Positions 2,658 through 21,720 of a stretch of 64,000 nt of DNA are shown here, one piece after another. A program made the translations under genes and the position numbers. The notes beneath the pieces are model-generated. The model was not told where the DNA came from and did not search any database. It was given only the letters and a program-made list of their open reading frames with translations. Every line of letters starts with the position of its first letter. Position 1 is the first letter of the stretch. Origin of the DNA: Flavobacterium sp. N2820 (lineage in GTDB: Bacteria > Bacteroidota > Bacteroidia > Flavobacteriales > Flavobacteriaceae); assembly GCF_025947285.1 (NCBI RefSeq), contig NZ_CP110008.1:1178001-1242000 (forward strand), given 5' to 3'.

Positions 2658-2708
2658 TTTAAAAATTTAAAAAAGTTGTATATATTTGATGATATTTACT
2701 AGTTAGCC
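2658..2708 (+). other. attI-like primary insertion site
   Basis: The 51 bp after the recombinase end in GTTAGCC (2702-2708), which fits the integron core site GTTRRRY. The first cassette begins here: its end just before attC1 reads CGGCTAAC, the complement of the GTTAGCCG at this junction. The 12-mer TACTAGTTAGCC (2697-2708) recurs at 49070. The extent of the functional site is inferred from position only. Confidence 0.6.
2681..2688 (+). promoter_or_regulatory. Putative cassette promoter (Pc) -7 element at attI
   Basis: TATATTTG lies between the recombinase stop codon and the first cassette boundary, 21 bp before GTTAGCC. It would transcribe the first cassette, analogous to the Pc promoter of classical integrons. 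Confidence 0.5.
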
Positions 2709-2744
2709 GTCAGTTTGGCGAAACGCAGAAAAAACGACAAAAAA

Positions 2745-3515
2745 ATGAATTTAAAAGCAGTAATTTTAATATTATTTACACAATTTCTTTTCGCTCAAGA
2801 GAAACCAGTTGTCTATGAAAATGATGCAAAAGCATATTACAACAAAAATTATAGTTGGGATTCAAACGAACTCTCTTTTTGTGATTTAACTATAGCGCCA
2901 GATTCAACTTTTAGCTTTTATTGTCGACCATATTCAAGTTGTTTTACTTGGAACGAAATTAGAGGGAAATGGAAAAAAGAAAAGAACATTTATACTTTTT
3001 TAAGTCAATATGAAGTATCTGAAAATGATACAAGATTTACTTTTAGCAAAGATTCTGTAAAAAGATATATATTAAATTTTAAAACTGATAAAAAGTCAGA
3101 ACTAAAAAATCGAAGCATCAAAGTTGAATATGTTTATGACTATGATGCAAAAAAAGATAACATAGAAAAAATAATGAGTTTTAACAATACTAATTCAATT
3201 GAAATTCCTTTTTCAGAAATCCCAAAACATAAAAAACTCGCATCAATACGAATAGAATATTATCTAGGCGCAAATGAAAAACGATATGCATACATTACTG
3301 ATGGAAAAATAACAAATGAAAAAGAAAAAGACATTCCAAATATTGTTGAAATTGAATTTATTGAAAACCCAATCAAAGAAATAGTTTATAGAACTACAAT
3401 AGGAAAATTAGAAAATGAAAAACTTGAAATAGTTTCATCTACAAAAACTAAAACAAGTTTACCTGAGTATTTAATTGAAATTGGTTTTGAAAAATACTAT
3501 CAATTAAGAAAATAA
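2745..3515 (+). CDS. Cassette 1: exported protein of unknown function
   Basis: A 256-residue protein with a signal peptide (MNLKAVILILFTQFLFAQ, cleavage near residue 18). The mature part is mostly polar with predicted beta structure, and residues about 45-75 contain several cysteines and an RGKWKKE stretch of the kind seen in lipocalin-like folds. I do not recognise the family. An in-frame TTG at 2715 would add ten charged residues before the signal peptide; the ATG at 2745 is preferred because it gives a proper signal sequence. This is the first cassette after attI and should be transcribed from the TATATTTG at 2681. Confidence 0.65.
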   Translation: MNLKAVILILFTQFLFAQEKPVVYENDAKAYYNKNYSWDSNELSFCDLTIAPDSTFSFYCRPYSSCFTWNEIRGKWKKEKNIYTFLSQYEVSENDTRFTFSKDSVKRYILNFKTDKKSELKNRSIKVEYVYDYDAKKDNIEKIMSFNNTNSIEIPFSEIPKHKKLASIRIEYYLGANEKRYAYITDGKITNEKEKDIPNIVEIEFIENPIKEIVYRTTIGKLENEKLEIVSSTKTKTSLPEYLIEIGFEKYYQLRK

Positions 3516-3523
3516 AACCGAAC

Positions 3524-3662
3524 GGCTAACAACGATTTCAAGAAATGGCGAGGCACGGGATTTATCAGAAATCGGAAAGGTTTTTAATTTAAAGTTTTGT
3601 TTATATTTGTGAAGGCTTGGTCTTGGTTTATCGCCACTTCTTGAAGTCGCAAAACGTTGTAC
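3524..3662 (+). repeat. attC1 (type B) with embedded promoter
   Basis: Left core GGCTAAC (3524-3530), right core GTTGTAC (3656-3662). Arms TTTCAAGAAATGGCG and CGCCACTTCTTGAAG are nearly complementary. TATATTTG -7 element at 3602-3609, 54 nt before the right core. Confidence 0.85.
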
Positions 3663-4174
3663 AACATTTTACACCAAACAAAATCGAAAAAAAATTTAAA
3701 ATATTATCAATTATTTCTTTAAGCTTCTTCTTAATAGTTTGCTCGATTAATTATTTCATTCCAAAACTAGAATTTAATAAACCTGAATATAATAGAGCAT
3801 TTGGAATATTTTTTAATTTGTATTGTTTTTACATTCTTTTCATAATATTGAAATATTCACTCTTACTTAAAAACAAAGTTTTAAAATTTATTTCCATATT
3901 ATTAATCATTATAACCTTTTTAATAGCTCTATTGAATTTCCTACTCTATTCTATGAAAATAGATCCACAAACGCAATATCATAACGTTGAAATTAAATAT
4001 TTCAATAAAAAAAATAAGTTTGAATTAATAATCAAACAATATAGGGTAAACTGGAAAACCAACAAAAAAATATATCAAGAAAATATGGTTTATGATATTG
4101 GACCTTTTAGATATTTTAAGGAATTTGATGTTGACACAACAAAACTGAATAATGATTGGGAAAAAATAAAATAA
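3617..4174 (+). CDS. Cassette 2: membrane protein of unknown function, start codon uncertain
   Basis: Up to 185 residues with three hydrophobic segments (roughly residues 30-50, 58-85 and 90-112) and a polar C-terminal domain. I do not recognise it. The cassette itself (from 3656) has no ATG before the first transmembrane segment. The frame is open back into attC1 to a TTG at 3617, so translation either starts inside the upstream attC, or uses GTT/GTA/ATT-type codons near 3656, or the gene has lost its start. The TATATTTG at 3602 would place the transcript start close to 3617, consistent with a leader starting within attC1. It ends 8 bp before attC2. Confidence 0.5.
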   Translation: MVLVYRHFLKSQNVVQHFTPNKIEKKFKILSIISLSFFLIVCSINYFIPKLEFNKPEYNRAFGIFFNLYCFYILFIILKYSLLLKNKVLKFISILLIIITFLIALLNFLLYSMKIDPQTQYHNVEIKYFNKKNKFELIIKQYRVNWKTNKKIYQENMVYDIGPFRYFKEFDVDTTKLNNDWEKIK

Positions 4175-4181
4175 AAACGTT

Positions 4182-4320
4182 GTACAACAGCGGTTTCAAG
4201 AAATGGCGAGGCACGGGATTTATCAGAAATGGGAAAGGTTTTTAATTAAAAGTTTTGTTTATATTTGTGAAGGCTTGGTCTTGGTTCATCGCCACTTCAT
4301 GAAGCCGCGAAACGTTGTGT
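4182..4320 (+). repeat. attC2 (type B) with embedded promoter
   Basis: Left core GTACAAC (4182-4188), right core GTTGTGT (4314-4320). Closely similar to attC1. TATATTTG at 4260-4267, 54 nt before the right core. Confidence 0.85.
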
Positions 4321-4366
4321 GCTATTTTTGAAAAACATTGGAAGTAAGAACATTTATCTTAAAAAA

Positions 4367-4789
4367 ATGAAAATATACTTAATAATTATCTCTTTATTTT
4401 GCATTGAAAATTGTCTATCACAATCTATAGAAAATGATTGGAAAAAATTTAACTGTGAAAATTGGACTGTAAAAATTGAAGAAGAAAAAAGTATCTTCCT
4501 CGGGAAAGAGATGCAGTTTTATGTAAGTTTTATAAATACAAAAGGTAACACAAAAGAAGTTAATTATTTCGTTTACAAAAAATCAGATATTGATTCAAAT
4601 TTTAATAAAGAAGTTCTAAACTATTATATGATTCAATCTTGTATTTATGTCAATGAAAAATTAGGGTTTGAATCATTTTATTTAAATGATTACTACTACT
4701 TCCTTAAACCTTGCCATTGTCACACAAAAGATAACCAAGATTGCGGAAATTTGTCGATGAATATAAAAAAGTACATAATTATAAAATAA
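4367..4789 (+). CDS. Cassette 3: small exported Cys-rich protein
   Basis: A 140-residue protein with a signal peptide (MKIYLIIISLFCIENCLSQS) and a mature domain ending in a cysteine/histidine cluster (CHCHTKDNQDC). No family recognised. A GTG at 4319 lies in frame at the cassette edge, but the ATG at 4367 gives a normal signal peptide after an A-rich leader. The identical gene is repeated in cassette 4, so dosage is doubled. Transcription is expected from the -7 element in attC2. Confidence 0.65.
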   Translation: MKIYLIIISLFCIENCLSQSIENDWKKFNCENWTVKIEEEKSIFLGKEMQFYVSFINTKGNTKEVNYFVYKKSDIDSNFNKEVLNYYMIQSCIYVNEKLGFESFYLNDYYYFLKPCHCHTKDNQDCGNLSMNIKKYIIIK

Positions 4790-4795
4790 AACAGC

Positions 4796-4933
4796 ACACA
4801 ACAGCGGTTTGCTTCAATGGCTACTTCCGGATTTTCCTACGGAAAATCCGCTGCTGAATGGAATGTTTTGTTATATTTGTAATGGCTTGGTGTTGGTGCA
4901 ACGCCACTGAGAGCAAGCCGCATAACGTTGTGT
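4796..4933 (+). repeat. attC3 (type A) with embedded promoter
   Basis: Left core ACACAAC (4796-4802), right core GTTGTGT (4927-4933), inner hairpin CGGATTTTCC-TAC-GGAAAATCCG, TATATTTG at 4872-4879, 55 nt before the right core. The arms GCGGTTTGCTTCAATGGC and GCCACTGAGAGCAAGCCGC pair with an extra base, as in classical attC. Confidence 0.9.
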
Positions 4934-4979
4934 GCTATTTTTGAAAAACATTGGAAGTAAGAACATTTATCTTAAAAAA

Positions 4980-5402
4980 ATGAAAATATACTTAATAATT
5001 ATCTCTTTATTTTGCATTGAAAATTGTCTATCACAATCTATAGAAAATGATTGGAAAAAATTTAACTGTGAAAATTGGACTGTAAAAATTGAAGAAGAAA
5101 AAAGTATCTTCCTCGGGAAAGAGATGCAGTTTTATGTAAGTTTTATAAATACAAAAGGTAACACAAAAGAAGTTAATTATTTCGTTTACAAAAAATCAGA
5201 TATTGATTCAAATTTTAATAAAGAAGTTCTAAACTATTATATGATTCAATCTTGTATTTATGTCAATGAAAAATTAGGGTTTGAATCATTTTATTTAAAT
5301 GATTACTACTACTTCCTTAAACCTTGCCATTGTCACACAAAAGATAACCAAGATTGCGGAAATTTGTCGATGAATATAAAAAAGTACATAATTATAAAAT
5401 AA
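4980..5402 (+). CDS. Cassette 4: exact duplicate of the cassette 3 gene
   Basis: The 140-residue product is identical to that at 4367-4789, and the whole 613-bp cassette 4927-5539, including its attC, appears identical to 4314-4926. Signal peptide and C-terminal CHCH-type cluster as in cassette 3. The perfect repeat implies very recent duplication, either by re-insertion of an excised circle next to its parent or by unequal exchange between the two attC sites. An assembly artefact is possible but unlikely to match the cassette limits exactly. Confidence 0.65.
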   Translation: MKIYLIIISLFCIENCLSQSIENDWKKFNCENWTVKIEEEKSIFLGKEMQFYVSFINTKGNTKEVNYFVYKKSDIDSNFNKEVLNYYMIQSCIYVNEKLGFESFYLNDYYYFLKPCHCHTKDNQDCGNLSMNIKKYIIIK

Positions 5403-5408
5403 AACAGC

Positions 5409-5546
5409 ACACAACAGCGGTTTGCTTCAATGGCTACTTCCGGATTTTCCTACGGAAAATCCGCTGCTGAATGGAATGTTTTGTTATATTTGTAATGGCT
5501 TGGTGTTGGTGCAACGCCACTGAGAGCAAGCCGCATAACGTTAGCA
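5409..5546 (+). repeat. attC4 (type A) with embedded promoter
   Basis: Identical to attC3 except for the right core: ACACAAC 5409-5415, GTTAGCA 5540-5546. TATATTTG at 5485-5492. Confidence 0.9.
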
Positions 5547-5570
5547 GTAATTTTAAAAAAAACCGTAAAG

Positions 5571-6020
5571 ATGAAAAAAATTGTTATTTTATTTTTAGTT
5601 TTTACTTGTAATTCATTTTCACAATTTAAAGTCAATTATAAAGAAATTCAATCAAAATATTCTCCTTTAGATTCTGAAGAATCATTTATAGAAACAAAAA
5701 GTGTTAATGATTTAGAACAAGTGCTTTTCCATTTCTCAAAAAAAGACAGCACGCTATTATCTGTAAATTTTAAACATTTAGAAAGTTATACCGAAAATGA
5801 TTTTTTAAATATTGTAAACGAATATATAATCGATTATAAACAATCTAAAATAAAAGAATGGGAAAATTGGACTTTATATTATGATGAAAAAAATAAAATA
5901 ATAGTTGTAAAAGTATTTGAAAATCATTTAAAATCCAAAATAAAAGATATTACAATGATTAATGACAAGAGAACTGTTGAATCAATGTTAAAATTATTTG
6001 AAGTAAAATTTTCACACTAA
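5571..6020 (+). CDS. Cassette 5: exported protein of unknown function
   Basis: A 149-residue protein with signal peptide MKKIVILFLVFTCNSFSQ (cleavage after Q18). The mature part of about 130 residues is polar and lacks cysteines or recognisable catalytic motifs; the C-terminal half alternates strands and a helix. No family recognised. The ATG lies 31 bp after the cassette boundary in an A-rich leader. Transcription is expected from the -7 element in attC4. Confidence 0.6.
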   Translation: MKKIVILFLVFTCNSFSQFKVNYKEIQSKYSPLDSEESFIETKSVNDLEQVLFHFSKKDSTLLSVNFKHLESYTENDFLNIVNEYIIDYKQSKIKEWENWTLYYDEKNKIIVVKVFENHLKSKIKDITMINDKRTVESMLKLFEVKFSH

Positions 6021-6027
6021 AAACTAC

Positions 6028-6165
6028 TGCTAACAGAGGTTTGCTTCAATGGCTACTTCCGGATTTTCCTACGGAAAATCCGCTGCTGAATGGAATGTTT
6101 TGTTATATTTGTAATGGCTTGGTGTTGGTGTAAAGGCATTGAAGACAAGCCTCATAACGTTAGTG
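6028..6165 (+). repeat. attC5 (type A) with embedded promoter
   Basis: TGCTAAC (6028-6034) and GTTAGTG (6159-6165); the last base deviates from GTTRRRY. Inner hairpin intact, TATATTTG at 6104-6111. Confidence 0.88.
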
Positions 6166-6193
6166 GCAAGCTTAAACAACATTCGCTTTAAAA

Positions 6194-6523
6194 ATGAAAA
6201 AAACTATTTTAATCTTAATGTTTTCTTCTTTCTCTTTTTCACAATCTGTAAATGGCGAAGATGAACTCTACAAAGAATATCAGAAAGTAGACAAAGAATT
6301 AAATTCTGTGTACAATAAACTCATAAAAAAACTCTCAGAAACTGACAAAAAAAATCTAATTGAGGCTCAAAAAGCATGGATAAAATTCAGAGATTTAGAT
6401 TGTAAATTTCAAAGTCAAGATCCAGACAATGGTGGTGGTCCATATGAAAACAAAATGAAAATAGATTGCACAATCAAAAAAACGACAGACAGGATAAAAG
6501 AACTGGAAAATTTGGATTGGTAA
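6194..6523 (+). CDS. Cassette 6: exported LprI/DUF1311-family protein
   Basis: A 109-residue protein with signal peptide MKKTILILMFSSFSFSQ. The mature part matches the LprI-like DUF1311 pattern: an amphipathic helical repeat followed by LIEAQKAWIKFRDLDC and a second cysteine in IDCTIKKTTDRIKEL. In this family two conserved cysteines probably form a disulfide, and characterised members include the mycobacterial lysozyme inhibitor LprI. The function of this copy is inferred only. It is one of the few cassette genes with a recognisable family. Confidence 0.75.
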   Translation: MKKTILILMFSSFSFSQSVNGEDELYKEYQKVDKELNSVYNKLIKKLSETDKKNLIEAQKAWIKFRDLDCKFQSQDPDNGGGPYENKMKIDCTIKKTTDRIKELENLDW

Positions 6524-6536
6524 ATTAAAAGCCAGC

Positions 6537-6675
6537 CTCTAACAGCGGTTTGCTTCAATGGCTACTTCCGGATTTTCCTAGGGAAAATCCGCTGCTGAAT
6601 GGAATGTTTTTGTTATATTTGTAATGGTTTGGAGTTGGTGCAACGCCACTGAAAGCAAGCCTCATAACGTTAGCA
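6537..6675 (+). repeat. attC6 (type A) with embedded promoter
   Basis: CTCTAAC (6537-6543) and GTTAGCA (6669-6675). Inner hairpin loop is TAG instead of TAC. TATATTTG at 6614-6621. Confidence 0.88.
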
Positions 6676-6683
6676 CCAATTTT

Positions 6684-7466
6684 ATGACGACAACACTTCG
6701 ACATATAACTATAATCGTTTTGACAGTTTTACTGTCCAGTAAGACCTATGCACAAGACACGACAACAACTGACTTTTTTGACAAAATCAAAAGTTACGAC
6801 CTTTCAACAGTAATAGCTGCAGACAGTATTTTAACTGAAGACCGAGAAGATGGAAAGGAAAAATTTAAACGAGCAGAAATATTAGGTTTCATAGGAGACG
6901 ACTATCAAAGATTTTTTATTCATTTCGTTTCAGTCATCCAAAATCCGACAAATCCATACGAATATTTGGCTTACGGCAAGACAAAAGTTAAAGAAACAAT
7001 CTGTTCATTTCAAGGAACAATTACTGTTAGACAAGCAAGGGTTTATAAAGACGGTGACATAGCAACTTACAAACAAGGTTATGCAATATGTGACGTAATT
7101 CTCTATGAGGACAAAAAGCAACCCTCGACTGGCTTTATAAAAGGTAAATTGAAAAGCGAATTTCTAATCGACAGCAAAGGACAATTTAGATATGACGCTT
7201 TAATGTTTGTTGCGGACGGTTTTTCAAAAAATCAATTTGTTGGCAGTTGGACAAGTTATAAAACGAATGCTTCAAAAAAATGTAATTGGGGCGATTACAG
7301 AATTCCAGAATGCGGTGACCTTGACATTGGGGCTGGAGAGTTTAGCGTGGACGACAAATATTTAAAAAATGGTTGGGAAAATTATAGGCTTGCGTATTCT
7401 TACGACCCTGACAAACCTGAATCGCAAAAAGCAAGACAAAAAGAAAATGTACAATGGTGGAAATAA
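6684..7466 (+). CDS. Cassette 7: exported protein of unknown function
   Basis: A 260-residue protein with an N-terminal signal peptide (hydrophobic stretch 9-20, cleavage near YAQD at 24). The mature sequence is mixed alpha/beta with aromatic and glycine residues; no catalytic motif or family recognised. Base composition looks less AT-rich than the neighbouring cassettes, with many GAC codons, suggesting a different source. An upstream in-frame ATG at 6624 lies inside attC6 and is rejected; the ATG at 6684 is 15 bp after the cassette boundary. Confidence 0.6.
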   Translation: MTTTLRHITIIVLTVLLSSKTYAQDTTTTDFFDKIKSYDLSTVIAADSILTEDREDGKEKFKRAEILGFIGDDYQRFFIHFVSVIQNPTNPYEYLAYGKTKVKETICSFQGTITVRQARVYKDGDIATYKQGYAICDVILYEDKKQPSTGFIKGKLKSEFLIDSKGQFRYDALMFVADGFSKNQFVGSWTSYKTNASKKCNWGDYRIPECGDLDIGAGEFSVDDKYLKNGWENYRLAYSYDPDKPESQKARQKENVQWWK

Positions 7467-7473
7467 AAACTGT

Positions 7474-7605
7474 GGCTAACACGGGTTTTGCGTCAGGCGG
7501 GGTGACGTGCAAACTTGGAGCTTTGTGCTTCTATTCAAGTTCAGTGCAGGTTGACAGTTTTGTGCTCCGAAACCCGTCCGAACGCAAAGCCCGAAAACGT
7601 TAGCA
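7474..7605 (+). repeat. attC7 (divergent type, no exact -7 element)
   Basis: GGCTAAC (7474-7480) and GTTAGCA (7599-7605). Arms GGGTTTTGCGT and ACGCAAAGCCC pair. Middle contains a one-mismatch element CAGTTTTG at 7555. Middle resembles attC16. Confidence 0.8.
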
Positions 7606-7621
7606 GTAATTTTTCCTCAAA

Positions 7622-8164
7622 ATGACGAATTCAAAAATGAAAAGTATAAAAACCTATCCTAATATATTTTGGCTAATAATAAACCTAACAATCCTTTCAT
7701 TTTTTGGAATGATGATATTAGTTTGTCTAGAATGGATATTTGAATTTAATCATTTCTTTATAAATAGTAGAGATGGTAAATTTGTTATGTTTTTACTTCT
7801 CCTATTTGCATCTTCATTTTTTGCAGCTCTTTATTATAAACTTTCGAATGAATTTACTTTTGCTATTTTAAATTCAGAAAAAATAAAAATATTTCAATTA
7901 TTAAAATTTAAAATTCTAACTCTTAAGTATAATGAAATCAAAGGATATTCAAATTCTGAAATTTATTATGGAAGAGTACCTTTACATTTTGTCTCTAAAT
8001 CAATAATAATTTATTCAGAAAAAAATCAATTTGAACTTATCAAACTTTTTAATTTTAATTTTGAAATATTCAAAAATGAAATGAAAAAATTAAAAATTAC
8101 TTATTTCGGAAAAGAACCATATCAAACAGGGATTTTTAAAAGAAAATATAAATATAAAAATTAA
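7622..8164 (+). CDS. Cassette 8: two-helix membrane protein of unknown function
   Basis: A 180-residue protein with two transmembrane segments (about residues 15-38 and 53-70) followed by a soluble domain whose order of strands and a final helix (FEIFKNEMKKL) resembles small bacterial PH-like domains. No family assignment is made. ATG at 7622 is used; a second ATG at 7637 would also work. Its upstream attC7 lacks an exact -7 element, so expression may depend on read-through. Confidence 0.55.
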   Translation: MTNSKMKSIKTYPNIFWLIINLTILSFFGMMILVCLEWIFEFNHFFINSRDGKFVMFLLLLFASSFFAALYYKLSNEFTFAILNSEKIKIFQLLKFKILTLKYNEIKGYSNSEIYYGRVPLHFVSKSIIIYSEKNQFELIKLFNFNFEIFKNEMKKLKITYFGKEPYQTGIFKRKYKYKN

Positions 8165-8170
8165 AACTAC

Positions 8171-8305
8171 CGCTAACAGCCGTTTCACGAAATTGCGGGG
8201 CTTGGGAATTATCAGAATTGGTAATTTTTGAAACTAAATTTTGTCTATATTTGTAATCAAAAGTATTGAAAATCAGCAACTTCATGAAGCGGCGACACGT
8301 TAGCA
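8171..8305 (+). repeat. attC8 (type B-like) with embedded promoter
   Basis: CGCTAAC (8171-8177) and GTTAGCA (8299-8305). Arms GTTTCACGAAATTGC and CAACTTCATGAAGC pair imperfectly. TATATTTG at 8246-8253, 53 nt before the right core, with a TTG 15 bp upstream of the -7. Confidence 0.83.
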
Positions 8306-8323
8306 GTAATACACCAAAACTAA

Positions 8324-8572
8324 ATGGAGAAAAACACAGTAATTAAATTAAAAACTTTTAAAGGAACTTTAAAACCTACAACTAAAGTTAAAGATAGAGA
8401 AAATTACTGGAAACTGATTGGGGAAAAAGGCATCGTAATAGATGAAGCAGACTTCAATCCTGAAAAAGTTTTAGTAGTATTTGAAAAAAATATCGATGAT
8501 TTTGATTTAGAAAACCATAATCCAATTAAGAATTCTTTATATATTGATAAAAAGGATTTAGAATTATATTAA
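8324..8572 (+). CDS. Cassette 9, gene 1: small cytosolic protein
   Basis: An 82-residue acidic protein without signal peptide or membrane segment, mostly beta by pattern (VIKLKTFKGTLKP, GIVIDE, VLVVFE) ending with a short helix KKDLELY. No family recognised. It is followed after 35 bp by a second small gene in the same cassette, so the two are probably cotranscribed. A toxin-antitoxin or immunity pair is conceivable from size and layout alone, but nothing in the sequence proves it. Confidence 0.55.
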   Translation: MEKNTVIKLKTFKGTLKPTTKVKDRENYWKLIGEKGIVIDEADFNPEKVLVVFEKNIDDFDLENHNPIKNSLYIDKKDLELY

Positions 8573-8607
8573 TTGTTAGTATTAAAACAAAACAAACGGA
8601 ATAAATT

Positions 8608-8799
8608 ATGGACAAAGTAGCTTCAAATATGCAAACGTATATTATAGAAACCTCTGAAAAGAGACTTGGAAAAAAACTTTCTTCAGAAATTATTGAAAAA
8701 ATAAAAAAACATGGTAGTTATATTGGGTTGGAGATGATAATTGACACGGTAAACTCAATCGAGATAGAAAAGCTTGAACATTACTTAAACGATTTGTAA
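8608..8799 (+). CDS. Cassette 9, gene 2: small helical protein
   Basis: A 63-residue protein predicted almost entirely helical (SEKRLGKKLSSEIIEKIKKH and IEIEKLEHYLNDL). No signal peptide and no recognised family. It is the second gene of a two-gene cassette, with its start 35 bp after the previous stop. Small size makes the call less certain, but its position, A-rich upstream sequence and termination just before attC9 support a real gene. Confidence 0.5.
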   Translation: MDKVASNMQTYIIETSEKRLGKKLSSEIIEKIKKHGSYIGLEMIIDTVNSIEIEKLEHYLNDL

Positions 8800-8824
8800 A
8801 TTCAATAAGATTTAAATGTACTAC

Positions 8825-8962
8825 CGCTAACAGCGGTTTGCTTCAATGGCTACTTCCGGATTTTCCTGCGGAAAATCCGCTGCTGAATGGAATGTTTTGT
8901 TATATTTGTAATGGCTTGGTGTTGGTGTAATATTACTGAAACTAAACTTCAGAACGTTAGCT
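8825..8962 (+). repeat. attC9 (type A) with embedded promoter
   Basis: CGCTAAC (8825-8831) and GTTAGCT (8956-8962). Hairpin loop TGC. TATATTTG at 8901-8908. Confidence 0.88.
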
Positions 8963-8996
8963 GTAATACTCTAGAGACAGACAAAAAGAGAACTTA

Positions 8997-9503: not shown

Positions 9504-9511
9504 AGTACTAT

Positions 9512-15026: not shown

Positions 15027-15042
15027 CAAAAAGAAAACCTAT

Positions 15043-15171
15043 AGCCAACAGGCGTTTGGCAAAAAAGCGGGTTCAGTGCTTATGAAGTTTTTACTTCGTA
15101 TCAAGTTCAGCGCTGGCAGAAAGTTTAGTGCTTCGAAACCCGCTTCTTCGCCAAGAGCCAAAACGTTATGC
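15043..15171 (+). repeat. attC16 (divergent, no -7 element)
   Basis: AGCCAAC (15043-15049) and GTTATGC (15165-15171). Arms GGCGTTTGGCAAAAAAGCGGG and CCCGCTTCTTCGCCAAGAGCC pair along most of their length. Resembles attC7 in its middle. Confidence 0.82.
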
Positions 15172-15178
15172 ACCATTT

Positions 15179-15505
15179 ATGAAAGACAAAACTATGAATT
15201 TCCGATTTCTTTTTATTTCCTTTTTATTTTTTGTAATGTTAAATGCATGTAAAAATTATTATGATGATACTATAGTTTGGGCGGAAAATATTAAAATTGG
15301 AACTGATTTAGAAACTGTAAAAAAAACTCAGCCTAGCTTTGTGGAAATTGCATGGGATAAGCCAATTGAAATTGAAAACCAAGCTGGACCAAATCAAAAA
15401 CTCTATCAGATAACTGAAATAAGCGGAGATAATGATGTCTTAAATATGTCAAAATTTTTAGTTTTTGTAAATGGAAAATATCAACATTTGGAACTCAAAA
15501 AGTAA
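15179..15505 (+). CDS. Cassette 17: small lipoprotein
   Basis: A 108-residue lipoprotein with lipobox VMLNAC (lipidated cysteine 24). A second ATG five codons later (15194) gives a shorter n-region and is equally possible. The mature domain carries IKIGTDLETVKKTQPSF, reminiscent of BamE/SmpA-like small lipoproteins, then strands ending in ELKK. A GTG at 15128 inside attC16 is rejected. Because attC16 lacks a -7 element, its promoter is unclear. Confidence 0.58.
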   Translation: MKDKTMNFRFLFISFLFFVMLNACKNYYDDTIVWAENIKIGTDLETVKKTQPSFVEIAWDKPIEIENQAGPNQKLYQITEISGDNDVLNMSKFLVFVNGKYQHLELKK

Positions 15506-15521
15506 TGGATATTTAAACGTT

Positions 15522-15660
15522 GCATAACAGCAGATTGCTTCAATGGCTACTTCCGGATTTTCCTACGGAAAATCCGCTACTGAATGGAATGTTTTGTTAT
15601 ATTTGTAATGGCTTGGTGTTGGTTCAACGCCACTGAGAGCAAGCCATAGAAACGTTAGCA
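15522..15660 (+). repeat. attC17 (type A) with embedded promoter
   Basis: GCATAAC (15522-15528) and GTTAGCA (15654-15660). Hairpin intact. TATATTTG at 15598-15605, 56 nt before the right core. Confidence 0.88.
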
Positions 15661-15678
15661 GATATTATAAAAAACACT

Positions 15679-16230
15679 ATGAAATCACTATTTACTTTTT
15701 TATTAATTATACTTATAAATCATACAATCCTATCACAAAGTGATTTAACTGATTTATCAAAAATTAAATTGTGTGAAACTAAAATTTCAGATTTTGGAGA
15801 ACCTTTAACTACAGTTTTAGTCAAAGAATTAGATGAATGCCCAAATGGAATTACACCCTTAAAAATTCCTGGCTATCAACATAAAAGCGGTTTTACTTTT
15901 TCATCATACAAAAACGTTATATTTCAAATTCATTTAGCAGATAGTACAATTTATAAAATCATTCTGAACAAAGAATTTAAAGGTTATTTAACAGATGGAA
16001 AATACATAGATTTGTCAACTCTAAAAGCAAAAGATATTAAACATAAAGATTCTTTGTATTGGTTTAAAGAAGGCTGTTCAGAATATTTAGGATTAGGATA
16101 TAAAAATTTTAAGTTTCATATTAAGCAAGATAAATCTATTCCATCTGAAAATACAATTAATCAAGAATTATATAGCGAAAAAAATATCGAAATTGTAACA
16201 ATACAAAGCAATTGTTATAAACGAAAATAA
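15679..16230 (+). CDS. Cassette 18: exported protein of unknown function
   Basis: A 183-residue protein with signal peptide MKSLFTFLLIILINHTILSQ. The mature part contains four cysteines (ETKI region, DECPN, EGCSE, SNCYK) that could form disulfides in the periplasm. No family recognised. The first 15 bases of this cassette and the 15 before its attC differ at a single position when one is reverse-complemented, the best such match in the array. Confidence 0.6.
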   Translation: MKSLFTFLLIILINHTILSQSDLTDLSKIKLCETKISDFGEPLTTVLVKELDECPNGITPLKIPGYQHKSGFTFSSYKNVIFQIHLADSTIYKIILNKEFKGYLTDGKYIDLSTLKAKDIKHKDSLYWFKEGCSEYLGLGYKNFKFHIKQDKSIPSENTINQELYSEKNIEIVTIQSNCYKRK

Positions 16231-16237
16231 TAACATC

Positions 16238-16375
16238 TGCTAACAGCGGTTTGCTTCAATGGCTACTTCCGGATTTTCCTACAGAAAACCCGCTGCTCAA
16301 TGGAATGTTTTGTTATATTTGTAATGGCATGGTGGTGTTGTAAAGGCATTGAAGACAAGCCTTAAAACGTTAGTG
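16238..16375 (+). repeat. attC18 (type A) with embedded promoter
   Basis: TGCTAAC (16238-16244) and GTTAGTG (16369-16375). Two changes in the inner hairpin stem. TATATTTG at 16314-16321. Confidence 0.86.
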
Positions 16376-16398
16376 ACTTTATTCCCAGAACTATAAAA

Positions 16399-16854
16399 AT
16401 GAGTAGAAAGAATATATTTATCGTTGTAATCATTACTGTAAATTTACTATTTGCTTGGTCGACTTTTAATATGTTTTATTATAAAAAATTATCTTTTGAC
16501 ACTTCTGAAAAAGCAAAACTGAATCAAACTAATGTTGACAAAGTTATTAATGGTGATGGAAGTTGGAAATGGAACGAAAAAGAATATGATTTTTATAAAG
16601 AATATTCCTTTTCGTTAACTAAAAATGAGATCAAAGAGTTTAGCAAAATAATAAATTCAGCAAACGCTATATATGTTGATAATATAAGACCTAAAAAATG
16701 GTTTGACATATATATTGTGAAAAAAAACGGAAATAAAAGTTTAATTACTTTAAAGCAGAGTAATGAAAATGAGATATATTTTGATATTAACCATAAAACC
16801 TTTGACGGAAAAAAATTAGAAAAATATATACAGAAACATATCAAACGAAACTAA
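16399..16854 (+). CDS. Cassette 19: single-span membrane protein
   Basis: A 151-residue protein anchored by one N-terminal hydrophobic segment (residues 6-26, no clear cleavage site) with a basic-and-aromatic periplasmic domain containing several KNG/KNE turns. No family recognised. The cassette start GTTAGTGACTTT matches its end (ACAACTGCTAAC) only over the core bases, weaker than for other cassettes. Confidence 0.58.
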   Translation: MSRKNIFIVVIITVNLLFAWSTFNMFYYKKLSFDTSEKAKLNQTNVDKVINGDGSWKWNEKEYDFYKEYSFSLTKNEIKEFSKIINSANAIYVDNIRPKKWFDIYIVKKNGNKSLITLKQSNENEIYFDINHKTFDGKKLEKYIQKHIKRN

Positions 16855-16865
16855 AAAAATACAAC

Positions 16866-17002
16866 TGCTAACACCGTTTTACTCCAACCGCTGACTCTAG
16901 CTTTTTCCGTAGGAAAATCCGCTGCTGAATGGAATGTTTTGTTATATTTGTTATGACTTGGTTGGTGTAAAAGCACTGAAAACAAGTCTAAGAACGTTAT
17001 AG
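16866..17002 (+). repeat. attC19 (diverged type A) with embedded promoter
   Basis: TGCTAAC (16866-16872) and GTTATAG (16996-17002). Left arm drifted; hairpin loop GTA as in attC11. TATATTTG at 16943-16950, 53 nt before the right core. Confidence 0.83.
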
Positions 17003-17009
17003 GATATTT

Positions 17010-17606
17010 ATGAACACGAAACACATCATTCTTTTTTTGTTTTTCGCTTTGAACTTAAGTTGTCAAAGTAAATGTGACTGTAATATTGATTTAAAAGTTG
17101 TAGAAAAAAATGACAGTATACTTAATACTATAAATTCAGTTAATAAGACAATTTGGCGAAAGCATTTGGAAGACTTAAAAGAACCTGATTTAAGATTTGA
17201 GAGTAATGAAGTTTACAGATTATCAATAAAAGACGTAATGACAGGTTCAACATTCATTTATAGAATACAAACCGATTATGAAAATTATAAAATGATTCTT
17301 AAAAAGAATTACAAAACTTTAAATGGAGAAGATAGCATTGAAAAAAAATCAGAAAGAAAGTTGTTAAAAAGTGAGTGGAACAAATTTCAAACCCAAATAA
17401 ATAAAAGCTGTTTTTGGACATTTCCAGTTAGAAATCCTAAAGAACACGGTTTTGATGGTTCAACTTGGGTTTTAGAAGCAAATTCTCCAAATAGTTATAA
17501 TTGTACCGATAGAAAATTTCACGCAGTTCAGAGATGGTCACCAAAAAAAGAAACTGAATTTTATAAGTTATGCAATTTACTTATTGAATTTGATAGTGAA
17601 AAATAA
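17010..17606 (+). CDS. Cassette 20: lipoprotein of unknown function
   Basis: A 198-residue lipoprotein (MNTKHIILFLFFALNLSC, lipidated cysteine 18) followed at once by a CDCN cysteine pair. Mature domain about 175 residues, with conserved-looking aromatic stretches FWTFPVRNP and FDGSTWVLEANSP and a final helix. I do not recognise the family. The ATG is only 14 bp after the cassette boundary. Confidence 0.6.
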   Translation: MNTKHIILFLFFALNLSCQSKCDCNIDLKVVEKNDSILNTINSVNKTIWRKHLEDLKEPDLRFESNEVYRLSIKDVMTGSTFIYRIQTDYENYKMILKKNYKTLNGEDSIEKKSERKLLKSEWNKFQTQINKSCFWTFPVRNPKEHGFDGSTWVLEANSPNSYNCTDRKFHAVQRWSPKKETEFYKLCNLLIEFDSEK

Positions 17607-17613
17607 AAACGTG

Positions 17614-17751
17614 CTATAACAGCGGTTTGCTTCAATGGCTACTTCCGGATTTTCCTGCGGAAAATCCGCTGCTGAATGGAATGTTTTGTTATATTTGTAA
17701 TGGCTTGGTGTTGGTGCGACGCCACTGAGAGCAAGCCGCAGAACGTTAGTT
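17614..17751 (+). repeat. attC20 (type A) with embedded promoter
   Basis: CTATAAC (17614-17620) and GTTAGTT (17745-17751). Hairpin loop TGC. TATATTTG at 17690-17697. Confidence 0.88.
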
Positions 17752-17773
17752 GCAATAAAAAAAATCGTTGTAA

Positions 17774-18343
17774 ATGAAAATCCATTTAATTAGTCTTTTT
17801 ATTATTATACTTATATTTTCTTGTGGTCACGAAAATCCAAAATTACAAAGTATTTCTACTAAAACTCCAGTTGATAGTATTGTAGTTTTGAAAAATGAGA
17901 ATAATAAAATGATTTGCATTTATAGATTTTCAAACGGTAATCCCAAAAAACTTAATGAAAAAATCACTTTTTTACCAAATGGAGAAATTGACTATTCAAA
18001 GAGTATGTTTCTACAAGTAATAGAAAATGATTTAGTTCTTTGGTCACCTAATGAAAAGCAATATCCAATACCAATAAAAAGATATGCACAATTTATCGGT
18101 TGGAAAATTACAAATGATTCAATCGGTAATCAAACTATAAAATTAGACACAACTTTTTTTAGAGAAAACTCGAAAATAGAAAACTATCTTAAATTACTTC
18201 CTCCTAAAGGAAAAATTCTAGAAACCTTGTTTTTAGATACAATTATAAAATCAAAAGGGGAAGAAAATAAAACTATAATAAGAACTATAGAATATGATGT
18301 TGACCTTCGAGACCTTTTAATAGATAAAATTAAAGAACTTTAA
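17774..18343 (+). CDS. Cassette 21: lipoprotein of unknown function
   Basis: A 189-residue lipoprotein (MKIHLISLFIIILIFSC, lipidated cysteine 17). The mature domain is polar and beta-rich, with a repeated 'KNENNKMICIYRF' and 'ITFLPNGEIDY' style of strands, and a C-terminal helix. No family recognised. Cassette-end complementarity is long here (GTTAGTTGCA at the start, TGCAACTAAC at the end). Confidence 0.6.
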   Translation: MKIHLISLFIIILIFSCGHENPKLQSISTKTPVDSIVVLKNENNKMICIYRFSNGNPKKLNEKITFLPNGEIDYSKSMFLQVIENDLVLWSPNEKQYPIPIKRYAQFIGWKITNDSIGNQTIKLDTTFFRENSKIENYLKLLPPKGKILETLFLDTIIKSKGEENKTIIRTIEYDVDLRDLLIDKIKEL

Positions 18344-18354
18344 TAGTTTACTGC

Positions 18355-18490
18355 AACTAACAGTGGTTTTGCACAATGGCTTGGGCTTTGTTTTTCCTTC
18401 GGAAAAACCTCTATGATTAGTAATTTTGTTTTATATTTGCTTTCGTCAGTGATTAATTCAAACCACTCTATAAAGCCTTAAACGTTAGCA
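18355..18490 (+). repeat. attC21 (divergent type) with embedded promoter
   Basis: AACTAAC (18355-18361) and GTTAGCA (18484-18490). Has its own inner hairpin GTTTTTCC-TTC-GGAAAAAC and TATATTTG at 18432-18439, 52 nt before the right core. Confidence 0.84.
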
Positions 18491-18504
18491 GTAATTCTTA
18501 ACCT

Positions 18505-19560
18505 ATGAGACTAAAAATCATTTTAATACTATTGATGTTTTTTAACATAAATTCTTTTGCACAGTTAAATCCTGACCTAATAGTTGGCCGATGGATAAAA
18601 TTTGATGCAGAAATGCGTGATGGAAGCAAGCTGTTGCCTCGACCATATGCAGATTCCACTTATTTTGAATTTACTATTAGTCGGGATAAACTTTCTATGA
18701 ATTCTAATCCTCTTACTAAAGGTAAACCTTACATCAGCTACAAATTAAAAGATAACTATCTAAAAACTTCTGAAACTTCAGGATATACTGTAGAAAGGAT
18801 ATCTAAAGATACTTTAATTCTCTGTGAACGAATTGATGGCCAACAAAATGATAGATTGAAATGTTATCATCTTATACGGGAAGAAACTCTCAATTTAAAT
18901 TTCTTGCAAAAATATCAAGGCAAAAAAGAAATTGTAGCGACAAAACTTTTTACACCACTGTTAAAAGGTGACATTCAAGGTGCCATTTTTAAAGAGTTAG
19001 GCGACAAAAACATTTCCAATTATCACGTGATTGGTAACCTGAAAATTTATAAAGAAAAAAAGATTACAGCACAAATTATTGAATCATCAACAAACGATTC
19101 AACGAAAATTAATATTATAACAAGAATTTTAGAAAATTCCTATGACAAATGGGATTTTAAAAATTTTAGTCAATTTGACAAAATTATAATTCCTTTTGTA
19201 TTAAGAGTACAACGAACAACAGATAAAGGAATAGGATTTAAAGGTATAAATATTCTTTATCATACGCATGATTTAGAAGACGTAAATAGACTCTATGGTC
19301 CAAAAATTAGTGATTTATCTAAAGCGCTTGAATTATACGACGAAGGAACTAAGGCTTATTCAAAAGGAAAATATCTTAAAGCGGCAGAGCTGTTTTCACA
19401 ATCCTATGAATTAAATCCTCAAGAGCTTGATGGCTTATATAACAAAGCCATCGCATTATTTCAAGGAGGAGATAAAACGGGAGCATGCAAAGTTTGGGAG
19501 GAATTGGTGAAGCTAGGTCAAACTAATGGAAAAGAAATGTATAAAACATATTGTAATTAG
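18505..19560 (+). CDS. Cassette 22: exported TPR-containing protein
   Basis: A 351-residue protein with signal peptide MRLKIILILLMFFNINSFAQ. Residues 25-120 look like a lipocalin-type beta domain (LIVGRWIKFDAEM ... SYKLKDNYLKTSE). Residues about 265-345 form two tetratricopeptide repeats (ALELYDEGTKAYSKGKYLKA and LFSQSYELNPQELDGLYNKA), which mediate protein contacts. The largest single-domain-plus-TPR product of the array. Role unknown. Confidence 0.65.
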   Translation: MRLKIILILLMFFNINSFAQLNPDLIVGRWIKFDAEMRDGSKLLPRPYADSTYFEFTISRDKLSMNSNPLTKGKPYISYKLKDNYLKTSETSGYTVERISKDTLILCERIDGQQNDRLKCYHLIREETLNLNFLQKYQGKKEIVATKLFTPLLKGDIQGAIFKELGDKNISNYHVIGNLKIYKEKKITAQIIESSTNDSTKINIITRILENSYDKWDFKNFSQFDKIIIPFVLRVQRTTDKGIGFKGINILYHTHDLEDVNRLYGPKISDLSKALELYDEGTKAYSKGKYLKAAELFSQSYELNPQELDGLYNKAIALFQGGDKTGACKVWEELVKLGQTNGKEMYKTYCN

Positions 19561-19566
19561 AACTAC

Positions 19567-19697
19567 TTCTAATACTCGCTACGCTCCATTGCTGCATTAT
19601 GCAAGCCTAAAACTTTATTCTTCCATATATCTTTTTAACTTGCAGAAAATACTTAGCTAACTAAGTCTCAACGAACGCCAATTGGAGAATGTTGTGC
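19567..19697 (+). repeat. attC22 (degenerate)
   Basis: The left core is mutated (TTCTAAT at 19567-19573 in place of AAC); right core GTTGTGC (19691-19697). Arms pair poorly. Only weak promoter-like elements (TATCTTTT at 19628). Probably a decayed or hybrid site. Confidence 0.55.
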
Positions 19698-19731
19698 ACA
19701 ATACCCGAAAAACGAATAAAAAATATCATCA

Positions 19732-21030
19732 ATGAAATTCTACATAATATATTTTTTTTGTCTCTTCAGCTTTTTGGGAATTGCACAAAGTAATTTTCAA
19801 AAGGATAGCGTTTCAATAACTCAAATAAAATTATTGAATTCCGAATATAAAGATTTTGTATCAGTAAAAAATAAGTTATATGCTATATCTCAAAATAATG
19901 ATTTAATTGAAATTGATTTAAAAAAAGATAATTTCAAATTAATTAAAAATAACATTACTGCAATAGCGAAAAAATCAAATGACGAATTAGTCTTTGGAAG
20001 TAAAGATGGAAAAATATTTATACTAAATAACAAACATAAAGTTAAACAGATTGAGAAAATCGATGCAGAAATATTTTCTGTATTAATAAATACAAAAGAT
20101 GAATATATAATATATTCCAACAAATCTATTTACTACAACAAAAAAAATTATATACCTAAAAGGGAAACCAATTTTTATGGAAAAGTTAGAGCAAAATACA
20201 CAGGAACAATATTAATTGAACCTGATTACATTTATTTAGATAAAATGAATTTTATTTGGTTTGCCTATGATGAAGGAGAATGGGGAGGAAATGTTTGCTT
20301 TTTTGATTTAAATAAAAAAGAATTCATTTACGATGATTGGTTAAGACTTGATGATGAGGTTAAATATAAAGACAGAAATGACTATTTCACAAAATTAAAG
20401 GAAAAATATCCAGAAATAATTAAAGTTACAGAAAAGGATACAGTTTATAAATATCCTTATAGTTTAGGTATTTCAAGTGTAACCAAAGGTGCTACTTACA
20501 ATAACAAAGATGAACTTTTCACAACTTCAAGTGGTGTACTTAACTCAATATACGCAACAAGAAATGGTTTCCATTATTTTGTTGATGGTACTATTATAAA
20601 AATCACAAATAAGGATAGTGATTATTATACATCTTGTTTTGACCAAGATATTCTTGAAGACGAAAGATATAAGATTGCTTTTGAGAGAAATTTTATGGGT
20701 TTTAAAAATAAAGATAGAGAATTAAGAGAAAACATATTAACCGAAAATGAAGTTAATATTTTAGGTCATATTTCATATAACAAATATGATAGTAATTTAT
20801 ACTTCTTTAGTTCTAAAGGTTTTTATACTTTAAATAATTTAGATTGTTCATTTTCAAAAAAACTATTTTTTAATCCAAAACTAACTTGTAATTCACAATA
20901 TGAGAAAGACTATTGTTTACATTTAAATGTGATTAAGTTTGAATTTATAAGTGAAAAAGAAATTCTATTTCTAACCAAAAATGATGGAATTGGATACTAT
21001 AATGGTGAAAGTATAAAATATTATAGATAA
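19732..21030 (+). CDS. Cassette 23: large exported beta-propeller-like protein
   Basis: A 432-residue protein with signal peptide MKFYIIYFFCLFSFLGIAQ. The N-terminal half has short repeating strands (FVSVKNKLYAISQNNDLIEID, ELVFGSKDGKIFILNN, EYIIYSNKSIYYN) with the spacing of WD40/propeller blades, and the C-terminal half repeats this (NLYFFSSKGFYTLNN, EILFLTKNDGIGYYNG). No enzymatic motif. This is the longest cassette gene. The cassette start (GTTGTGC) and end (TGCTAAC) do not match each other, so the present unit may be a fusion of two cassettes. Confidence 0.62.
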   Translation: MKFYIIYFFCLFSFLGIAQSNFQKDSVSITQIKLLNSEYKDFVSVKNKLYAISQNNDLIEIDLKKDNFKLIKNNITAIAKKSNDELVFGSKDGKIFILNNKHKVKQIEKIDAEIFSVLINTKDEYIIYSNKSIYYNKKNYIPKRETNFYGKVRAKYTGTILIEPDYIYLDKMNFIWFAYDEGEWGGNVCFFDLNKKEFIYDDWLRLDDEVKYKDRNDYFTKLKEKYPEIIKVTEKDTVYKYPYSLGISSVTKGATYNNKDELFTTSSGVLNSIYATRNGFHYFVDGTIIKITNKDSDYYTSCFDQDILEDERYKIAFERNFMGFKNKDRELRENILTENEVNILGHISYNKYDSNLYFFSSKGFYTLNNLDCSFSKKLFFNPKLTCNSQYEKDYCLHLNVIKFEFISEKEILFLTKNDGIGYYNGESIKYYR

Positions 21031-21049
21031 CTTAAATAATAAAACCATC

Positions 21050-21183
21050 TGCTAACACAGGTTTCGCAAGATTGCGGGTTTTGGGCTTAATTTAAAGTTG
21101 GTTTTGTAACTTTGAGTTCAGTGTTTAATCGAAAGTTTCGGCTTCTTTAGTCCGCAACCTCGCGAAGCCTGAGAACGTTAGCA
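21050..21183 (+). repeat. attC23 (divergent type) with embedded promoter
   Basis: TGCTAAC (21050-21056) and GTTAGCA (21177-21183). Arms AGGTTTCGCAAGATTGCGG and CCGCAACCTCGCGAAGCCT pair well. TAACTTTG at 21107-21114, 70 nt before the right core, the only exception to the 52-56 nt rule. Confidence 0.84.
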
Positions 21184-21206
21184 GTCATACTGAATTACGA
21201 AAAGAG

Positions 21207-21608
21207 ATGAAAATTTATACTGAATTTAAAACAGATATTATTAGGGTAAAAATAAATGGTACTGAAAAGCATTTTCAATTACCAAATGATTTTTATTCAA
21301 ACAATAAAAAAGAGGAAACGATAAAAATGTTTATTGATGAAGAAATAAATTCAAGAATTAAACATTTTGTAAAAGTTGAAACTGACAAACTAAACTTTAT
21401 AAATCGTGTTAAAAACAAACTTTGGGGAAATGAAGTATTATCCTTAATCGATAATAGTATTGAAAATATAATTTCCGTTGAACAAATGTATGCCTATTCT
21501 ACAATATCTTTTATCGGAAGAAACGTATATATAATTATGAAACCTAATGGATTTGACAGTAAAAATTTAAATGATGTGGAACTAATTAAGGAGCTAAGTG
21601 TAAATTAA
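21207..21608 (+). CDS. Cassette 24: cytosolic protein of unknown function
   Basis: A 133-residue protein without signal peptide. N-terminal strands (YTEFKTDIIRVKINGTEKHF) lead into a helical region and a basic stretch FINRVKNKLWGNEVL, then hydrophobic strands. I do not recognise the family. Last complete cassette of the array; its own attC is truncated on the right. Confidence 0.55.
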   Translation: MKIYTEFKTDIIRVKINGTEKHFQLPNDFYSNNKKEETIKMFIDEEINSRIKHFVKVETDKLNFINRVKNKLWGNEVLSLIDNSIENIISVEQMYAYSTISFIGRNVYIIMKPNGFDSKNLNDVELIKELSVN

Positions 21609-21618
21609 AAGCAAGAAC

Positions 21619-21720
21619 TGCTAACAGCGGTTTGCTTCAATCGTTACCTACTGAATAGAATGTTTTTTTTTATATTTGTAATGGCTTAGTACTGATTTAA
21701 CTCTAAAGCTTAATTTAAGC
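21619..21720 (+). repeat. attC24 (truncated type A) at the array end
   Basis: The left core TGCTAAC (21619-21625) and left arm are intact, but the inner hairpin is deleted and no GTT core follows TATATTTG (21671-21678). The array therefore ends here, and the promoter now faces the leucine-rich-repeat gene at 21759. Confidence 0.78.

Follow-up and report, generated by a model that had tools for sequence, protein, structure and literature searches.

What sort of system is represented by the long row of repeats and small genes that follows a tyrosine recombinase gene in the chromosome of Flavobacterium sp. N2820? The stretch considered here, termed the window, consists of 64,000 nucleotides (nt) of a single-contig 3.06-Mb chromosome (NZ_CP110008.1, positions 1,178,001 to 1,242,000, forward strand); positions are those of the window unless the chromosome or another genome is named. 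Within it, 24 site positions alternate with 24 + strand cassettes (2702-21705), directly 3' of the recombinase gene (879-2657). The array and its recombinase very probably constitute an integron-like gene-capture platform, because the recombinase is adjacent, an attI-like site is followed by a variable first cassette, the arms of the sites are cassette-specific and single cassettes are shared between species. These same features uphold a preliminary description of the locus, which had proposed the architecture of a sedentary chromosomal integron. That description had also suggested a site family and a recombinase different from those of Proteobacteria, and this is borne out by the missing IntI insertion, an IntI score under the cut-off and the absence of GTTRRRY and RYYYAAC cores.

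Sites of the array

The sites, which were located by sequence, measure 121-157 nt with the terminal AAC and GTT included. All positions of the 24 repeats said to alternate with + strand genes were found, and the cassette open reading frames (ORFs) are all on the + strand; the count needs one amendment, in that site 22 is decayed and site 24 half-deleted, the other 22 having both ends intact. A right-half-only site at 2702 is attI-like. A covariance model trained on 48 diverse sites, three of them from the window (sites 2, 8 and 21), recovers 21 sites of the array at E<=0.003, site 10 at E 0.11 and site 22 as a partial match at E 0.16; site 24 was not recovered in the window. The sole other window match at E<=1 is at 27222-27345 on the - strand (E 0.23).

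Arms of the cassettes

How are the complementary arms arranged? A cassette opens with 15 bases (GTT...) whose complement lies at its own 3' end, in the 15 bases that finish in ...AAC. When positions 4-17 are counted in all 24 window cassettes, a cassette's own arms form on average 9.4 of 14 pairs, arms across the same site 6.0 and all other combinations 5.6, and none of 20,000 permutations reached the own-arm value; in this test the right end of site 22 was set 2 nt left of the true GTT (19691), and the arms of cassette 23 mismatch with either choice. The position-by-position profile of 20 cassettes (all but cassette 4, the exact copy of cassette 3, and cassettes 22-24) shows positions 1-10 and 12-15 mostly paired, position 11 paired in 0/20, and an end to pairing after position 15.

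The same pattern is present in two further sets. Among relatives, 54 overlapping loci were scanned, 26 of them with at least three sites on a strand; in 133 distinct cassettes from 20 loci, own arms score 9.3 of 11 and same-site arms 4.8 (permutation maximum 5.05 in 500). Position 11 is paired in none of the 117 relatives' cassettes in which five or more of the seven positions 4-10 pair (A.C 100, A.G 14, G.A 3), and the paired fraction is 0.85-0.91 at positions 12-15, falling to 0.19-0.26 from position 16 onward. The third set, 43 cassettes at 10 loci, combines nine loci from eight Bacteroidota genomes that are not Flavobacterium with a second array in N2820 itself. Own arms score 8.1 here, compared with 4.8 (permutation maximum 5.14 in 2,000), and position 11 is paired in none of the 26 cassettes scoring 8 or more.

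The unpaired base noted in the preliminary description is thus constant in place. The complementary arms noted there are also real, but they pair across the cassette, the start of one unit with its end, and not within a repeat. Pairing within a repeat was considered and rejected, as same-site pairing is close to the permutation mean in all three sets. Own arms lie hundreds of bases apart in the array and would therefore meet only when the cassette is circular; since own arms pair and neighbours' arms do not, the full site would form only in the excised circle.

The hairpin body

The stretch between AAC and GTT is occupied by a hairpin. In the 48 diverse sites, which were selected on the first 12 stem bases and 11 arm positions, 16 of 16 stem pairs vary on both sides, and the inner hairpin described earlier is well founded on this count. 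Stem cells are paired at 91.4% vs 62.0% when shuffled, double-change cells number 198 vs 53.8, and sliding the 3' partners by 1-3 columns drops pairing to 31-46%. Because outer stem bases were used in the selection, the independent evidence for covariation is the inner helix (columns 20-23 with 111-114), and it covaries too, e.g. with GC 19, UA 19, AU 6 and CG 2 at one pair; the last pair of this helix fails in 21 of the 48 sites. Of the 48, 41 retain a T.G wobble between columns 9 and 126.

Folding was calculated for 21 window sites (all except 22, 23 and 24). In the circle form the mean z relative to dinucleotide shuffles is -3.8 for the bottom strand and -2.9 for the top strand. Mean folding values are -24.5 (bottom) and -22.9 (top) in the circle form, and -19.8 and -20.5 in the array form. 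Structure is thus kept while sequence varies, as it is in the folding of attC sites.

Could the repeats instead be regulatory or RNA-processing hairpins, spread by homologous recombination and devoid of site-specific mobility? They lie between genes, and TAnnTTTG, the flavobacterial -7 promoter box, occurs in 75 of 158 bodies when the + strand is read and in 3 when the - strand is read, with a mean of 12.9 after shuffling. Non-redundant bodies number 61, of which 21 have the box against an expectation of 5.1; of the 22 boxes, 14 are placed 52-54 nt ahead of GTT. With such a box ahead of the next cassette in nearly half of the scored bodies, the sites may double as promoters. However, a purely regulatory role leaves unexplained the pairing of arms across a whole gene with its fixed mismatch, as well as the attI-like junction and the similarity breaks at cassette borders in other species, and it can hardly be credited as the full explanation.

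The attI-like site

The putative crossover GTT at 2702 stands 44 nt past the recombinase stop codon, at the end of an attI-like site (2662..2704, + strand) that contains TATATTTG, a TAnnTTTG (-7-like) box; such boxes also occur in other attI-like sites. This genome was compared with 19 of 27 other copies of this recombinase type. In these 20 genomes the 25 nt before GTT have a mean identity of 80% and the 25 nt after it 39%, the five closest sites are 94% identical over 40 nt, and the first 12 nt past GTT are distinct in 20/20. The bases just before GTT are partly conserved by choice, because GTT was located by a pattern for the preceding 4-5 bases. A site beside the recombinase gene, conserved up to the GTT and variable after it, is what is expected of attI as the primary insertion site.

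In genome G067 (locus L109, contig C13, about 20.4-21.0 kb) a 98% copy of cassette 18 directly follows an attI-like stretch (GTATATAAACGA, then GTT); the main run of sites in G067 is on that contig too, but far away at 188-206 kb. Upstream of the recombinase, an intergenic element has two window copies (705-790 and 51736-51818), each with a TTGCTGTACAGCAA-like palindrome and three copies of CCCTAGGG; the first sits between the gene at 268-651 and the recombinase. The CCCTAGGG cluster is missing within 600 nt upstream of the recombinase in the 13 relatives examined.

The recombinase

The recombinase gene (879..2657, + strand) encodes 592 amino acids (aa) from TTG, or 580 from the ATG at 915. 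The protein comprises three tandem beta-beta-alpha-beta-beta-alpha modules (about aa 17-72, 129-183 and 203-262), a SAM-like core-binding domain and a catalytic domain, with Pfam matches to PF13495 and PF00589 (134.4 bits). R438, K463, H528, R531 and Y563 are invariant in 38 homologues and H554 is present in at least 90%; they presumably represent the R-K-H-R-H-Y set, and the catalytic residues of a tyrosine recombinase are all in place.

Is this a true IntI/attC integron that has merely diverged? In favour of this, no curated NCBIfam model scores higher than that of the integron integrase (TIGR02249), IntI4 ranks among the leading solved structures in both sequence and fold comparisons (first place goes to XerA, 5hxy), and recombinase, attI-like site and array stand in integron order. 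However, the TIGR02249 score, made up of two stretches, is 208.6 bits vs a cut-off of 265. That cut-off is passed in 105 of 395 genomes of the phylum and, among those listed, in none of the genus, family or order and in one of the class; with the phylum delimited as in GTDB, its other classes do contain true IntI genes. The first catalytic Arg lies 93 aa from HxxRH in 20/20 proteins of this type and 92 in three plasmid-borne relatives, vs 134 in 13/13 IntI (12 from the phylum and one IntI1); the pattern missed eight short-type and three Xer-like proteins. From KGxKDR (patch III) to HxxRHS there are 58-59 aa in 87 family ORFs, a count that covers the short type and overlapping loci; in the two IntI picked up by the pattern the distance is 100. 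The recombinase thus has no counterpart of the IntI insertion of ~41 residues, and its alignment to IntI4 breaks where that insertion would sit. The IntI-specific additional domain near patch III, by which the integron integrase is defined in the accessible part of PMC9668308, is not found in it.

A tree of 47 rows places the 592-aa type on one branch (98/100) and IntI on another (92/91). Support is weak (80/82) for the fork that parts this family and two Xer rows from IntI; short-type rows are split between two places, and the deeper order is uncertain because of long branches.

The sites also point away from a diverged IntI system. RYYYAAC and GTTRRRY are the consensus of attC core sites; GTTRRRY is found in 0/23 and RYYYAAC in 0/24 cases in the window, and in 4 and 5, respectively, of the 158 cassettes scored. 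The site model, whose E-values are rough, produced no hit at E<=1 when run on 50 kb and a further 3 kb of E. coli K-12 and on 12 kb around a class 1 integron, and none at E<=0.001 in the whole 127.7-kb class 1 integron record, which suggests that the site kind here differs from that of class 1 integrons. A merely diverged IntI integron appears improbable. Membership in the IntI family itself was rejected on the missing insertion, the score below the IntI cut-off and the sites without the classical core.

What might the N-terminal modules do? Pfam and PDB sequence searches with the N-terminal 263 aa gave no match, nor did a Pfam search with one short-type N-terminus. A model of the whole protein (pLDDT 73.7, pTM 0.32) showed the catalytic core in the best 50 matches listed of a PDB fold search. 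For a model of the N-terminal part (pLDDT 81.0, pTM 0.35), 0 of 428 fold matches in the PDB (E<=10) reached E<=0.001. Among the weak ones are the N-terminal part of XPB helicase (2fz4, prob 0.94; 6p66, 0.92; 5tnu, 0.84; E 0.24-0.37) and the HARP domain of SMARCAL1 (4o66, prob 0.51, E 0.44, 27% identity). The N-terminal part of XPB and the HARP domain bind damaged or branched DNA. The modelled resemblance would fit a protein that reads folded sites, and is offered as a lead only.

A shorter recombinase type (about 350-370 aa, one N-terminal module) also heads arrays (L045, L046, L048, L049 and L050). In profile comparisons its N-terminus joins module 1 (97%), and modules 1 and 3 join each other (85.5%); module 2 does not. 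At locus L136 (genome G489) a short-type recombinase (10642-11409, +) is divergent from its sites (8782-9550, -). A fragment of a second recombinase is also present in the chromosome of N2820 (351067-351315, -; 63% identity over query residues 510-592, with internal stops), and an isolated site (349074-349197, -) lies about 2 kb away.

Distribution and sharing of cassettes

Counting N2820, 27 of the 299 genomes of the genus have a full-length relative of the recombinase. At least one site is detected by the site model (E<=0.001) in 135 of 296 Bacteroidota genomes, some of which rest on one or two weak matches; positives comprise 15 of 18 listed genomes of the genus and 12 of 12 listed from the rest of the family. 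The 43 matches in the N2820 genome consist of 20 in this array, 11 in a second cluster and 12 scattered. This second array (L135, chromosome 1262484-1272610; 11 sites) begins some 20 kb past the window. It has no adjoining recombinase of this family, the nearest recombinase match (31% identity) being 16 kb beyond, and most of its arms, with the position-11 mismatch, are like those of the window.

Are cassettes gained and lost singly? Of 16 matches to window cassettes in the fetched loci, 11 have both ends at cassette borders, allowing up to 38 nt or the next GTT, and six of these (cassette 11, cassette 17, cassette 18 twice and cassette 23 twice) are flanked by a site or an attI-like stretch of this kind. 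The presence or absence of single head-to-tail cassettes among relatives, with similarity breaking at cassette borders, is thus seen between species. F. celericrescens and F. piscinae have a 1,406-nt cassette in common at 99.8%. The 91% copy of cassette 18 in genome G095, some 0.84 kb downstream of a recombinase of the short type, has the arms of the window cassette and a different body type; the two recombinase types therefore seem to share cassettes.

Homologous cassettes bear on another possibility, i.e. that the units are transposon-like elements with 15-base terminal inverted repeats, the hairpin bodies being a separate repeat in between. The arms are indeed inverted repeats around a gene, and body type sometimes changes as gene and arms stay. 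Among 158 cassettes at 28 loci there are 16 homologous pairs, nine of them within one locus. Identity of the 3' body is >0.83, the 95th percentile of random bodies, in 12 of the 16 and 0.82-0.83 in two more; the preceding body exceeds 0.83 in five. The 3' body thus goes with the gene in 14/16 pairs, and two pairs show the change of body. Transposon-like gene units as the main mode were rejected on this travelling of the 3' body. Moreover, the arms are cassette-specific rather than those of one element family, the array starts at an attI-like junction behind a tyrosine recombinase in 20/20 loci, and Pfam scans of the cassette ORFs revealed no transposase domain among the window cassettes. The transposon-like alternative is therefore a very unlikely one.

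In the pairs L046/L119 and L119/L119, gene and arms are alike and the body is different, as if bodies were exchangeable. Simple exchange at GTT does not explain a body swap with arms kept; such a swap might come about through gene conversion or through exchange on the AAC side.

tet(X) and plasmid-borne units

Does the system extend to genes of known function on plasmids? The ISCR2-xerD-tet(X3)-res-ISCR2 unit of Acinetobacter plasmids resembles the platform described here in that the annotated xerD is a relative of the recombinase family (42.7% over query residues 337-584 in the plasmid at L105) and is followed by tet(X3) with cassette arms; it differs in that the recombinase is truncated and the downstream site incomplete. 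The GTT and AAC arms of this tet(X3) agree in 8 of 11 positions and are mismatched at position 11, which is the best result among the 98 AAC in the plasmid. In the accessible text of PMC8635130, xerD is mentioned solely as part of the ISCR2 unit.

Arms of tet(X) match 11 of 11 in an Empedobacter falsenii plasmid (best of 99) and 10 of 11 in a Bacteroides fragilis plasmid (best of 127). The tet(X) loci examined were L141, L142, L143 and L105. In three plasmids, those of Empedobacter, Riemerella and Bacteroides, the site model places a complete site immediately behind tet(X) (E 1.9e-11 to 2.8e-9); the Bacteroides plasmid has another about 160 nt upstream of the tet(X) unit. Riemerella has only the site and the 3' arm; the 5' side of tet(X) is replaced, with IS4351 upstream. 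A mobilizable plasmid, pls1 of Pontibacter kalidii (L106), carries a family recombinase (coding sequence 5365-6819) that heads six cassettes with matching arms (8-10 of 11, borders set by eye). One unit of the Pontibacter plasmid contains an IS110-family element.

How the cassettes might move

The array is like sedentary chromosomal and class 1 integrons in having a recombinase beside an attI-like site, head-to-tail cassettes and single cassettes shared across species, as well as inverted arms around a variable hairpin body, AAC/GTT ends and structure conserved over sequence. Unlike in integrons, the recombinase has N-terminal modules and no IntI insertion, and its gene is co-oriented with the array; a classical intI is usually oriented against its array. 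Cassette-specific arms of 15 bases with a mismatch at position 11 take the place of the RYYYAAC/GTTRRRY cores. The catalytic core is shared with the Xer proteins (XerA, XerC, XerD and XerH), but these act at dif sites and not on cassette arrays, and the three N-terminal modules and an attI-like site of its own set the recombinase apart from them. Other, distantly related Xer-like genes are also present in this genome.

A possible cycle can be outlined from these features. The recombinase would exchange strands at the GTT core. Excision between neighbouring sites would free a circle where the two 15-base arms of the cassette meet around the hairpin body, and the site of the circle, folded as a single strand or extruded as a cruciform, would be the substrate. 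This might be recognized by its shape, the mismatch at arm position 11 and the wobble of the inner stem, with the circle then reinserted, mostly at attI.

Several points weigh against an integron-like platform of this type. Excision, circle and insertion are deduced from sequence comparison; single-strand folding and strand choice are likewise presumed, and the recombinase is linked to the sites through adjacency in many genomes. Arms score below 8 of 11 in 27 of the 133 relatives' cassettes and 17 of the 43 in the third set, and those of window cassette 23 do not match. Sites 10 and 19 (2/21) are no stabler than shuffles in the circle form. Five of the 11 border-matched cassettes (L114, L117, L118, L120 and L125) are a homologous gene with no surrounding site. 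The body differs, with gene and arms kept, for cassette 18 in L111, for cassette 11 in L115 and in the two pairs above. Loci L032, L041 and L047 have a recombinase and no convincing array, and fewer than three sites on a strand were detected in 28 of the 54 loci scanned; many of these end at a contig edge near the recombinase, but L051 does not. Finally, the site model finds nothing in the Pontibacter plasmid, where site bodies are shorter and support comes from the arms.

The site-less homologues at L114, L117, L118, L120 and L125 have 78-82% DNA identity to the genes of cassettes 12, 1, 23 and 6. They are possible raw material of cassettes, or else former cassettes.

The cassettes and their genes

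Cassettes and sites are all on the + strand, and each site was found by sequence search and site model unless stated otherwise. Pfam cut-offs were passed by the LprI-like, beta-barrel, FUR-like, PEMT-like and TPR ORFs, and the rest of the cassette ORFs scanned have a weak match or none. Cassette 1 (2702..3530) has a 266-aa ORF and leads to site 1 (3528..3658). Cassette 2 (3656..4188; site 2, 4186..4316) shows a weak Yip1 match, under the cut-off. Cassettes 3 (4314..4802; site 3, 4800..4929) and 4 (4927..5415; site 4, 5413..5542) are an exact tandem copy, their 613-nt units of gene and site being identical at 613/613 nt. Cassette 5 (5540..6034) precedes site 5 (6032..6161), and cassette 6 (6159..6543; site 6, 6541..6671) encodes an LprI-like protein (PF07007). 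Next are cassettes 7 (6669..7480; site 7, 7478..7601) and 8 (7599..8177; site 8, 8175..8301), then cassette 9 (8299..8831; site 9, 8829..8958) with two small ORFs. Cassette 10 (8956..9518) ends at site 10 (9516..9645), where the stem is weak (model E 0.11). Cassette 11 (9643..10088; site 11, 10086..10214) has a 90% match in genome G060. Two genes, one for an outer-membrane beta-barrel (PF13568), are present in cassette 12 (10212..11343; site 12, 11341..11470).

Cassette 13 (11468..12083; site 13, 12081..12202) is followed by cassette 14 (12200..12690; site 14, 12688..12817), whose homologue in Persicobacter (L107; 49% aa) stands first among the cassettes there. FUR-like (PF01475) and PEMT-like (PF04191) genes make up cassette 15 (12815..13955; site 15, 13953..14109), and cassette 16 (14107..15049; site 16, 15047..15167) has alpha/beta hydrolase matches under the cut-offs. 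Cassette 17 (15165..15528; site 17, 15526..15656) has a 95% match in genome G260, and cassette 18 (15654..16244; site 18, 16242..16371) matches at 98% in G067 and 91% in G095. Cassette 19 (16369..16872) leads to site 19 (16870..16998; model E 0.0026). Cassettes 20 (16996..17620; site 20, 17618..17747) and 21 (17745..18361; site 21, 18359..18486) come before the TPR (PF07719) cassette 22 (18484..19573), whose site 22 (19571..19693) is decayed, with a left end of AAT and the partial model match at E 0.16. Cassette 23 (19691..21056; site 23, 21054..21179), with 95% identity in G769 and 92% in F. lacus, has a 5' arm that no longer fits its 3' arm. The array ends with cassette 24 (21177..21625) and site 24 (21623 to about 21705), where the right half is gone and which the model missed.

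Significance

How new is such a system? The accessible text on IntegronFinder 2.0 (PMC9024848) credits one Bacteroidetes species, Salinibacter ruber (M1), with the complete integron. A literature search of titles and abstract openings, exclusive of preprints and most subscription journals and hence weak evidence of absence, revealed no integrons or cassette arrays of the present kind in Flavobacteriia, and no paper describing tet(X) as part of a cassette system like this one. With less assurance than the reading of this locus, it is probable that a second, separate kind of integron is native to Bacteroidota, one with non-IntI recombinases that perhaps read folded DNA via N-terminal modules, and with its own attI and 15-base-arm sites. 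It would be phylum-wide, apparently overlooked by IntI/attC surveys, would pass single genes between species and genera (also on the mobilizable Pontibacter plasmid), and would be the source of tet(X).

The cassette-specific arms make it possible to assign arm and body to their gene by sequence alone. Should the system prove to be a parallel one, the origin of cassettes from genes becomes testable, some window genes having the site-less homologues at 78-82%, and so does the question of how cassettes acquire host-typical sites, where bodies can change as arms stay. tet(X), a gene of clinical concern, gains a likely source mechanism, and much of the phylum would hold an unrecognized pool of cassettes.

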